From: Rhodothermales bacterium
GTDB taxonomy: Bacteria > Bacteroidota > Rhodothermia > Rhodothermales > JANQRZ01
DNA length: 64,000 nt
Direction: 5' to 3'
NCBI GenBank assembly: GCA_039944855.1
Contig: JBDUXZ010000020.1
Span: 62,001 to 126,000, forward strand
Each line of letters opens with the position of its first letter. Positions within the stretch are counted from its first letter, which is position 1. Of the stretch, positions 17,672-20,096 are shown piece by piece. The position numbers and the translations under genes were made by a program. A model generated the notes under the pieces. It had not been told where the DNA came from, searched no databases, and saw only the letters and a program-made list of their open reading frames with translations.

Positions 17672-18697
17672 TCAGGAAGAGCGAGGGTAGGAGAAGGCCG
17701 TGCCGAGCCCCGACGTTTCGGGGTCGCGCTTCGCGGCGATGCGGAGGCGGGCGCTGCGGGCGCGGGGGTTCGCCGCGATCTCGTCGTCGCTCGCCGTGAT
17801 CGGCTTGCGCGTGACGAGGTCCCAGGGCGTGAGGAGGTTGCCGTAGAAGTCGCGGACGGGCTCGCCCTCGAAGTTGCCGTAGCGGAGGAACTGTTTGGCG
17901 CGGCGGTCTTCGAGCGAGTGGTACGCGATGACCGCCATTCGCCCGCCCGTCTTCAGCACCCGCAGCCCGGCGACGAGCGCGCGCTCCAGCACGGCCAACT
18001 CGTCGTTGACCGCGATGCGGAGCGCCTGGAACACCCGCGACAGCGTCTTCACTTCCTCGCGCGAGAACACGGCCGAGCGCACCGCGTCGGCGAGCTGCCC
18101 CGTCGTCTCGATCGGGCGGGCGTCGAGGATCGCGCGGACGACCTTCGAGGCGCGCGGCTCTTCGCCGTAGGCGCGGAGGATGTGGACGAGCTCGTCGGGC
18201 TCGGCGCGGTTGACGAGGTCGGCGGCGGAGAGCGGGGCGTCCGTGTCCATCCGCATGTCGAGTGGGCCGCTCGCGGCGTACGCGAACCCGCGCCCCGCCT
18301 CGTCGATCTGGTGCGACGACACGCCGAGGTCGAGCAGCACGCCGTCGACGCTCTCAATCTCTGCATCGGCGAGGAGGCGTTCGAGATCGCCGAAGTTGCC
18401 GCGGAGCGTGCGGAAGCGCGTGCCCTCGGCGTCGAGCCGGGCCGTCGCGGCTGCGAGCGCTTCGGGGTCCTGGTCGATCCCGATCACGCACCCGTCCGGA
18501 CCGAGGCGGTCGAGGAGCGCCGCCGCGTGGCCCCCGCCGCCGAGCGTGCCGTCAACGTAGGTGCCCGCCGGGTCGGTCACGAGCCCGTCGACCACCTCTT
18601 TATATAGGACCGGGGCGTGGTACCCCGTCGCGTAGGGCGCGGCGTGCGCGGGATCCCGACGGTCGGCTCGGTCAGTCATGGCGGTAGCAATAGTCAT
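17672..18697 (-). CDS. rsmH: 16S rRNA (cytosine-1402-N4) methyltransferase
   Basis: RsmH (MraW) uses S-adenosylmethionine to methylate C1402 in the 16S rRNA decoding centre. The start at 18697 gives 341 residues and overlaps the mraZ stop as ATGA. The product begins with about 25 extra residues and then the family start YHAPVLYKEVVDGL, followed by the SAM-binding motif VDGTLGGGGHAAALL. Further family motifs are GVLLDLGVSSHQIDEAGRGFAY (around residues 125-145), DLVNRAEPDELV and the C-terminal YHSLEDRRAKQF. Gene order directly after mraZ is the classic one. Confidence 0.96.
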   Translation of the reverse strand: MTIATAMTDRADRRDPAHAAPYATGYHAPVLYKEVVDGLVTDPAGTYVDGTLGGGGHAAALLDRLGPDGCVIGIDQDPEALAAATARLDAEGTRFRTLRGNFGDLERLLADAEIESVDGVLLDLGVSSHQIDEAGRGFAYAASGPLDMRMDTDAPLSAADLVNRAEPDELVHILRAYGEEPRASKVVRAILDARPIETTGQLADAVRSAVFSREEVKTLSRVFQALRIAVNDELAVLERALVAGLRVLKTGGRMAVIAYHSLEDRRAKQFLRYGNFEGEPVRDFYGNLLTPWDLVTRKPITASDDEIAANPRARSARLRIAAKRDPETSGLGTAFSYPRSS

Positions 18698-19146
18698 GAG
18701 CGCCCCCCCATCACCTGCTGGGCGGCGGTCTTGTACGTGCTGGACTGCTCGGCGAAGTAGGCGTCGAGCTCGTCCGGGTCCCAGACTTCGAGGTGGTCCA
18801 CGGTGCCGATGACGACGGCGGTGTCGGAGATGCCGGCGAAGTCGCGGAGCTCGGCGGGGATCACGATGCGGCCCTGCTTGTCGAGCGTCACGTCCTCGGC
18901 CCACATCGTGATCGTGCGGACGAAGTGGCGGGTCTCCTCGTCGGCGAACTGGTTGAGGCGATCGAACTGCTCCTCCTGCTGCTCCCACACGTCGAGGGGG
19001 TAGAGGACGACGCAGTTCTCGATGCCACGCGTGGCGGTGAACGTCTCGTTCGCTTCGGGGCTCATGACGCGCCGCATCTTCGCCGGGATCGCGAGGCGAC
19101 CCTTTTCGTCGACGGAGTTTTGAGAGCGTCCTTTGAAGCGTGCCAT
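18694..19146 (-). CDS. mraZ: Transcriptional regulator MraZ
   Basis: MraZ is a DNA-binding protein with two AbrB/SpoVT-like domains; in Escherichia coli it represses its own dcw operon by binding TGGGN repeats. The ATG at 19146 gives 150 residues starting MARFKGRSQNSVDEKGR, the expected size. The two repeats are visible as SVDEKGRLAIPAKMR (about 11-25) and TLDKQGRIVIPAELRDFAGI in the second half. It is the first gene of the cluster and lies divergent from a LexA-like repressor gene. Two TGGGG repeats with 10-bp period are found upstream, so autoregulation is plausible. Confidence 0.96.
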   Translation of the reverse strand: MARFKGRSQNSVDEKGRLAIPAKMRRVMSPEANETFTATRGIENCVVLYPLDVWEQQEEQFDRLNQFADEETRHFVRTITMWAEDVTLDKQGRIVIPAELRDFAGISDTAVVIGTVDHLEVWDPDELDAYFAEQSSTYKTAAQQVMGGRS

Positions 19147-19190
19147 CGTGCGCGGGGCGGTCGGGCGGCAGGGAGGGTTGTGGAGGCGTT

Positions 19191-19206
19191 CCCCACTTCT
19201 CCCCAC
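19191..19206 (-). promoter_or_regulatory. Candidate MraZ boxes
   Basis: On the minus strand GTGGGG occurs twice with an exact 10-bp period (19191-19196 and 19201-19206). Escherichia coli MraZ binds TGGGN units spaced by 5 bases, which is the same period. The pair lies just downstream of the predicted -10/-7 element, where a bound repressor would block transcription. Confidence 0.4.
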
Positions 19207-19213
19207 CGCGCAT

Positions 19214-19242
19214 CAAAGTAGCATGCATATATCTAAAGTCAA
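19214..19242 (-). promoter_or_regulatory. Candidate mraZ (dcw) promoter
   Basis: Read on the minus strand, TTGACT (19237-19242) is followed 16 bases later by TACTTTG (19214-19220). This fits a -35/-10 pair and also resembles the phylum element TAnnTTTG with one base missing. The start of transcription would lie around 19207, giving a leader of about 60 bases. Confidence 0.4.
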
Positions 19243-19353
19243 GCAAATACGCCCTAAATGAGCCCATTTTGTGGATAAGTAGAGGTGTAATAGAAAATCA
19301 CACATATACTTTCAGGTGAAATACCCCTCCGATCTCCCGTCCCGCCGCCGAAA

Positions 19354-19371
19354 GGTGAAAATCATGTCACC
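19354..19371. promoter_or_regulatory. Palindromic operator-like site 1
   Basis: GGTGA-N8-TCACC, an 18-bp interrupted palindrome. Its sequence GTGAAAATCATGTCACC recurs almost unchanged 41 bp downstream. The dyad with an 8-base spacer is the architecture of a LexA-type dimer site, although the half-sites differ from the known CTGT-N8-ACAG and GAAC-type boxes. Confidence 0.5.
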
Positions 19372-19394
19372 CTGCCCTTGGTCGCTACTCAACG

Positions 19395-19412
19395 AGTGAA
19401 AATCATATCACC
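19395..19412. promoter_or_regulatory. Palindromic operator-like site 2
   Basis: AGTGA-N8-TCACC with the same AAATCATA-like spacer as site 1. Its centre is 41 bp from that of site 1, close to four helical turns, so both would face the same side of the DNA. It ends 36 bases before the lexA-like ATG. Confidence 0.5.
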
Positions 19413-19448
19413 ATACCCTATCTTCCGTCTGCACATACCTCCGCCCCC

Positions 19449-20096
19449 ATGCCCCCAGTCCGTCTTACCGAGCGCCAGAACCGCGTCTTCGAACACATCC
19501 GCGCCTACTTTCGCGAGCACAGCAAGCCCCCCACGTTGAAGGAGATCGGCGACGCCCTCTCGATCCGCTCGACGAACGGGGTCTCGAAGCACCTCCACGC
19601 GCTCGAACAGAAGGGATACATCCGCCGCATCCCGAACGAAGCCCGCGGCATCGCCCTCGTCGATACCGGCGACGACCCGTTCGCCTTCGACGCCGAGGTG
19701 CCGAGCCTCCTCCTCGTCAGCCGCACCGACAGCGCGCAGCCGACGAAGCTCCGTAACCGGCCGAAGGGCGCACTTTACACCGACCCCCTCTTTCTCGGCC
19801 GCGCCGACGAGGACGCCTGCCTCCTCGGCCGCGCCGGCGACGACGGGATGAGCGACGTGGGCATCTTCAAAGGCGACTACCTCGTGATCGAAGAGCAGAA
19901 GTGGCGCCGGCTCCCCGACGGTGTCGTCGTCGCTGCGCTCGTCGGCGAGGCGCTCCTCGCCCGCACGTTCAGCTTCCTCAACGGTCGCCTCCACTTGCAG
20001 CCGGCGAACAAGTCGTACTCGAAGGAGGCGTACCCGCCGCGCGACCCGGCGTGCCACGTCATCGGCCCCGTGCTCAGCGTGATGCGGAAGCTCTGA
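19449..20096 (+). CDS. LexA-family repressor lacking self-cleavage residues
   Basis: The 215-residue product has a full LexA winged helix (residues 5-60: LTERQNRVFEHIRAYF, PPTLKEIGDALSIRSTNGVSKHL) and a C-terminal S24-like domain with the motifs GIFKGDYLVIE and LHLQPANKSY. Aligned by eye with canonical LexA, the Ala-Gly cleavage site (LVGRVAAGEP) is LVSRTDSAQP, so the bond would be Ser95-Ala96. The nucleophilic serine of GDSM is Gly133 and the general-base lysine is Ala171. All three features needed for RecA-stimulated self-cleavage are therefore missing, and the protein should be a stable repressor. Two palindromes in its own upstream region are candidate operators shared with mraZ. It resembles in principle the non-SOS LexA of some cyanobacteria. 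Confidence 0.88.
   Translation: MPPVRLTERQNRVFEHIRAYFREHSKPPTLKEIGDALSIRSTNGVSKHLHALEQKGYIRRIPNEARGIALVDTGDDPFAFDAEVPSLLLVSRTDSAQPTKLRNRPKGALYTDPLFLGRADEDACLLGRAGDDGMSDVGIFKGDYLVIEEQKWRRLPDGVVVAALVGEALLARTFSFLNGRLHLQPANKSYSKEAYPPRDPACHVIGPVLSVMRKL

Follow-up and report, generated by a model that had tools for sequence, protein, structure and literature searches.

A LexA-type gene divergent from mraZ

The window—the whole 64,000 bp stretch of DNA analysed here—carries at 19449–20096 (plus strand) a gene for a LexA-type regulator of 215 amino acids, with an ATG start; the assignment comes from the open reading frame list, Pfam and NCBIfam searches, alignment and an AlphaFold model. Its divergent neighbour is mraZ, the first gene of the division and cell wall (dcw) cluster, at 18694–19146 (minus strand, ATG at 19146; open reading frame list and neighbourhood comparison). 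Read from mraZ, the region between the two genes contains (i) an MraZ-box-like repeat, GTGGGGAGAAGTGGGGAA, in front of mraZ (19189–19206, minus strand; kept in most orthologs), (ii) a candidate mraZ promoter, TTGAC...TACTTTG (19214–19242, from the minus-strand reading and a comparison of orthologs), (iii) a DnaA-box-like element, TTATCCACA (19270–19278, minus strand; present in 11 of 29 orthologs), which lies between that promoter and the next features, (iv) two 16 bp palindromes, paired in orthologs, that we predict to be operators—a distal one, GTGAAAATCATGTCAC (19355–19370), and a proximal one, GTGAAAATCATATCAC (19396–19411), 41 bp or about four helical turns from the first—and (v) TATCTTC, a candidate -7 element of the lexA-like promoter, which follows the proximal operator at a distance of 7 bp (19419–19425, plus strand; Bacteroidota type TAnnTTTG). 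Seen from the operators, the MraZ-box-like repeats sit beyond the candidate mraZ promoter; from established knowledge of MraZ, we take repeats of the GTGGGGAGAAGTGGGGAA type in front of mraZ to be MraZ boxes.

The protein has the domain plan of LexA. Two domains exceed their cut-offs in the Pfam search: the winged helix (LexA_DNA_bind, residues 5–67, 76 bits) and, more weakly, the peptidase fold (Peptidase_S24, residues 114–208, 37 bits). The NCBIfam lexA model, TIGR00498, scores 104.7 bits, narrowly below its equivalog cut-off of 110.95. Pfam, NCBIfam and structure comparison agree that a winged helix is fused to an S24-fold domain across the full length, and the relatives with solved structures are LexA repressors. 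The AlphaFold model (mean pLDDT 78.7; low in the linker region around residues 74–109) has LexA structures as its best PDB matches, on which the two domains superpose singly (TM 0.88 to 1LEA and 0.82 to 6A2Q, by target length). The intact winged helix and S24 fold proposed in a preliminary description of this DNA agree with both the Pfam matches and the model.

The self-cleavage chemistry is absent. In an alignment with Escherichia coli LexA, the cleavage dipeptide Ala84-Gly85 corresponds to Ser95-Ala96, the nucleophile Ser119 to Gly133 (SGMSM becoming GDDGM), and the catalytic Lys156 to Ala171; these are the very residues that the preliminary description had counted by eye.

Conservation, selection and ancestry

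Of the order's 60 genomes, counting that of the window, 29 have an ortholog; named genera among them include Rhodothermus, Roseithermus, Salinibacter and Salinivenus. Although the other 28 share 33–73% identity with the window protein, all 29 have xD(D/A)GM in place of SGxSM, no catalytic Lys, and an Arg directly after the position of the lost Lys. A sequencing error at these codons, for which the preliminary description had allowed, is excluded, because every ortholog of the order is without the dyad; together with dN/dS, conservation across orthologs also rules out a pseudogene. In the orthologs tested, synonymous changes exceed replacement changes in both domains, C-terminal included, indicating purifying selection: among Rhodothermus-type (f3) orthologs, dN/dS is 0.01–0.08 over the two domains, and 0.05–0.08 for the gene with its C-terminal domain included. 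Within the window's family it is 0.15–0.32, the upper value belonging to the pair that is furthest apart and to its C-terminal part. One ortholog (L113, genome G410) is interrupted by an in-frame TGA, and is either a recent pseudogene or an assembly problem; it still lies near mraZ, and two putative operators, 32 bp apart, are found ~520–550 bp upstream.

The gene is divergent from mraZ in all 29 genomes, with the mraZ start 258–419 bp upstream. The pair also occurs in family f5 of the order and, elsewhere in the phylum, in f34, f36, f40 and f54, where the proteins are far more distant. The divergent arrangement with a shared control region, as described beforehand for the window alone, is conserved across 14 family-level groups. 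In four families of the order (f2, f9, f14 and f15), mraZ is retained but has no such neighbour, so the regulator is dispensable for mraZ function.

A phylum-wide search took in 396 genomes, and the neighbourhoods fetched from it gave 127 classified LexA-like proteins, which are related rows with near-copies among them rather than a count of independent events. The dyad is absent from all 53 that adjoin mraZ (two, L133 and L179, keep the Ser and lack the Lys). The remaining 74 lie away from mraZ and comprise 20 without the dyad and 54 with it, so that every dyad-bearing LexA is found away from mraZ; in f34 genomes the two kinds coexist, a dead one (that is, without the dyad) next to mraZ and an intact one elsewhere. 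In the tree, the mraZ-type dead LexAs and nine dead relatives form a single clade (support 99/99), separate from every intact LexA among the sequences included, which contained no cyanobacterial LexA. The nine relatives off mraZ belong to Chlorobiota, a MAG labelled Armatimonadetes, f31, f52, f57 and L081; those of Chlorobiota, f31, f52 and f57 do not adjoin mraZ. The window protein carries the hallmarks of the clade: DDxM for SGxSM, the Lys replaced and followed by Arg, a divergent mraZ, and paired palindromes. The tree places the loss of the dyad at the ancestor of a clade that spans the phylum. Since dyad and Ala-Gly site are gone throughout this clade, RecA-driven self-cleavage is not expected, as the preliminary description held.

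A further dead LexA lineage, tree-distant and away from mraZ, was seen in Schlesneria (Planctomycetota; L091–L094), where HGTAL and VRR stand in place of the dyad and VG in place of AG.

The preliminary description had raised the question of a second, cleavable LexA, and the answer differs between families. Most families of the order have one with SGQSM, LKR and Ala-Gly: a second LexA with Ala-Gly, an SGxSM-type loop and the Lys is present in f4, f6–f9, f11, f13 and f14, and in genome G043 of f2. In the window's family (f1) and in f12, the second LexA has degenerated: the cleavage residues are missing from L034, L134, L135 and L142–L144, and L145 keeps the Lys with both the Ser and Ala-Gly lost. 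By its position in the tree, this loss is separate from and later than that of the mraZ type: LexA self-cleavage has been lost twice, independently, in the order. The C-terminal part of these proteins is relaxed (dN/dS 0.22–0.57), with the DNA-binding domain still conserved; the Pfam S24 model no longer matches the window genome's own copy (L034, C40:24951). The Rhodothermus-type (f3) genomes yielded no second LexA, and the only hit in G004 was a UmuD (L153). In the window's genome, a 98% complete draft, PF01726 and PF00717 searches detected UmuD (L001) as the sole S24 protein with intact residues. L001 (C5:244005) has an intact dyad and adjoins umuC, and upstream of it lies a gene resembling a MerR-type regulator with a B12-binding-like part.

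Two observations concern the canonical LexA. Firstly, the top-ranking 8-mer in the promoters of canonical lexA genes (L032, L136–L152), seen as ACATATGT/CACATATG elements, also occurs between mraZ and the dead lexA gene at L010, L012, L016, L018–L023 and L029. These are loci of genomes with an intact canonical LexA; in f3 and f12, which have none, the elements are almost missing. This is suggestive of CACATATG elements being boxes of the canonical LexA, in which case the SOS LexA may act at the mraZ/dead-lexA region too. Secondly, many recA upstream regions of the order (among L224–L240; e.g., L226, L228) contain an inverted repeat like GTGACA-N6-TGTCAC, including those of f3 genomes, where the canonical LexA was not found.

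Paired palindromes and the recognition helix

The stretch 19340–19420, put forward in the preliminary description as the place to look for binding, holds both predicted operators, which its reader had not noticed. A blind, consensus-free test looked for two palindromic, mutually similar 16–17-mers 20–60 bp apart, assessed by dinucleotide shuffling (p ≤ 0.05). It was significant in 39 of 53 regions upstream of the gene, a count that includes a few accidental passes (at L012, L126, L158 and L179 the top pair is not the apparent operator pair); visible pairs at L004, L005, L015, L024 and L028 fell short of the threshold, and no convincing pair emerged from the test in f4, f5 and f34. Spacings between the palindromes cluster at 22, 31–34, 41–43 and 54 bp, approximately two, three, four and five turns of DNA. 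Among mraZ upstream regions without a dead LexA neighbour, 2 of 16 pass and none contains GTGA/CTGA sites, and at L081, where the dead LexA gene and mraZ are apart, no sites occur.

Close matches to the predicted sites are largely local. Across 22 gene-bearing genomes, most sites within one mismatch of GTGAAAATNNTTTCAC lie at the mraZ/lexA-like locus, and off-locus sites occur no more often than in genomes that lack the gene. The 64-kb window contains no third site even at three mismatches. In the window's genome as a whole, exact sites are confined to the region between the gene and mraZ, and a single further site at one mismatch, GTGAAAAGGTTTTCAC at C5:286005, follows a kinase-like open reading frame. 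We did not take the latter as a target: in G027, a genome without the dead LexA, the same 16-mer lies in front of a LacI-type gene. Weaker sites, for instance at the DNA-repair genes that an SOS LexA controls, may occur. In 13 of 29 orthologs, a pattern search on the gene's own side of the proximal operator found a TAnnTT-type element that starts 1–7 bp beyond it.

The outer base of the palindromes changes with the recognition helix. Contacts with DNA have been reported for Ser39, Asn41, Ala42, Glu44 and Glu45 of E. coli LexA (PMC13416735). In the order, the residue at the position of Glu45 is Lys and the outer base is G in 87 of 104 half-sites; in f36, f40 and f54 it is Glu, Asp or Gln and the outer base is C in 40 of 52 half-sites, a correlation that runs along few lineages. 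At the level of sequence, this co-variation ties the predicted operators to the dead LexA protein.

A probable local regulator outside the SOS response

The window gene looks like a LexA-fold regulator that has left the SOS switch, and not like a broken SOS gene. The data are best read as pointing to an autoregulator that acts locally, independently of RecA, and is coupled to mraZ. We consider it likely that the protein is permanently out of the SOS response, binds the paired palindromes, represses its own gene, probably tunes mraZ and the dcw genes, and is not released by RecA. In this model, the protein would bind as a dimer to the two helically phased palindromes of 16–17 bp in the intergenic region shared with mraZ. 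Because the TAnnTT-type element lies just past the proximal operator, protein on the operators would sit over the spacer and upstream element of the regulator's promoter, resulting in negative autoregulation. In orthologs with a locatable candidate mraZ promoter, the distance from there to the distal operator is 91–124 bp (~110 bp in the window), so any tuning of mraZ, and via mraZ of the dcw operon, would require action from a distance; accordingly, autoregulation is the better-supported output, and we infer control of mraZ. As the residues argue against self-cleavage, something else would have to lift repression: binding of a ligand or protein partner to the altered C-terminal domain, a different protease, or dilution. 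The conserved acidic loop Asp131-Asp132-Gly133-Met134, and Arg172, are candidate sensing features.

The preliminary description had linked the protein to the division and cell wall genes through the shared control region. That link stands in part: the region is shared and carries conserved paired operators, but these sit on the regulator's own promoter, closer to it than to that of mraZ, and the window offers no third site. The connection to division may be positional only. That the protein is a pure autoregulator without effect on mraZ strikes us as rather unlikely. The divergent neighbour would then be conserved because the two back-to-back promoters of the shared intergenic region do not come apart easily, and the sites at the real targets would be too degenerate for a pattern search. 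In favour are the operators, which abut the regulator's own promoter and lie at a distance from that of mraZ, and the near-absence of further sites in the genome at one mismatch. Yet a regulator without another visible target would lack any output. Its pairing with mraZ also persists over 14 families while the downstream neighbour varies (ortholog neighbourhoods hold no conserved downstream partner, pyrG being next in some genomes only), and genome G040 has neither mraZ nor the dead LexA.

Two further alternatives are each improbable. One retains a DNA-damage input, with another protease taking the place of self-cleavage, as with DdrO of Deinococcus, which IrrE/PprI cleaves. All 17 genomes checked have RecA, and binding of LexA upstream of an mraZ homolog in gut Gram-positives (PMC3998124) makes a link between damage and mraZ plausible; against this, in the ortholog neighbourhoods compared, no conserved gene, protease or other, lies downstream of the regulator. 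The other assigns the palindromes to a different DNA-binding protein. About a quarter of the loci are without a significant pair, and binding by the LexA-like protein is a prediction; however, the 16 bp geometry resembles the E. coli LexA box (CTGT-N8-ACAG), sites occur only where the gene is present, with none at L081, and the outer base co-varies with position 45. Finally, a decaying LexA that lost its dyad under relaxed selection, with the mraZ neighbourhood as leftover synteny, is very improbable: the canonical-type LexA of the window's family does decay in this way, and L113 is broken, but the mraZ-type loss is ancestral to a phylum-spanning clade, both domains are under purifying selection in the orthologs tested, and the operators track the recognition helix.

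The preferred reading, a self-regulating LexA-fold protein beside mraZ, can be extended into an evolutionary one, to which we give somewhat less than an even chance. By this extension, the protein would be an ancient paralog, peptidase-dead since before the deep branches of Bacteroidota split. It would serve as a dedicated mraZ/dcw regulator whose altered S24 domain responds to a signal other than SOS and whose operator changes together with the recognition helix; and some hosts, namely this one and Rhodothermus, would depend on it, with an SOS LexA that is in decay or lost.

Comparison with known systems places the protein near canonical LexA (TIGR00498; E. coli, PDB 1JHH and 3JSO), with which it shares the winged helix and S24 fold over the full length and, by prediction, LexA-geometry palindromes in its own promoter. 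Its mode resembles that of the LexA autorepressor, but membership of the SOS LexAs fails on the dyad, the Ala-Gly site and the below-cut-off score; the recognition helix is of the type STNGV.K rather than SPNAAEE, and close matches to the predicted sites lie almost only beside mraZ. MraZ itself is a regulator at the same intergenic region, with an unrelated fold and with box-like repeats that lie apart from the palindromes. We know of no link between IrvR of Streptococcus mutans and mraZ. Like the window protein, IrvR is a LexA-like regulator reported to act outside the RecA paradigm (PMC7101444). The LexA homologue gp6 of phage GIL01 is without a cleavage domain and binds its own palindrome at a -35 element, but is truncated to the DNA-binding domain, phage-borne and an activator (PMC6182141). 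In electrophoretic mobility shift assays, Bacillus subtilis LexA binds upstream of the mraZ homolog of gut Gram-positives: again a LexA-family protein acts at mraZ, but it is canonical and cleavable, the site type is another, and no divergent lexA-like gene is described (PMC3998124).

A precedent comes from cyanobacteria, to which the preliminary description had pointed: LexA of Synechocystis sp. PCC 6803 has Gly-Gly at the cleavage site and Asp for the catalytic Ser, and is regarded as having no part in the SOS response (PMC3091678, PMC4759255). Both proteins have a LexA fold with the cleavage residues replaced. The Synechocystis case, however, is a one-lineage loss in an otherwise SOS-type LexA, whereas the window type is an ancient, separate clade, has its close-match sites almost only at a single locus next to mraZ, and in most cases shares the genome with another LexA. 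A dead LexA paralog divergent from mraZ is described in none of PMC3091678, PMC6182141 and PMC3998124, and a literature search, with most subscription papers beyond its reach, returned no paper uniting LexA, mraZ and this group. This looks like a so far undescribed, dedicated regulator at the division cluster.

LexA is viewed as a self-cleavage switch; here, selection maintains the protease fold throughout a clade whose members have lost the chemistry, right where the dcw cluster begins. If confirmed, the regulator would provide (i) a new input to dcw regulation, (ii) a test case for signalling by an S24 domain without cleavage, and (iii) a natural data set on changes in LexA recognition, in the form of residue 45 and the outer operator base. 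A lexA annotation in these bacteria need not imply an SOS response.
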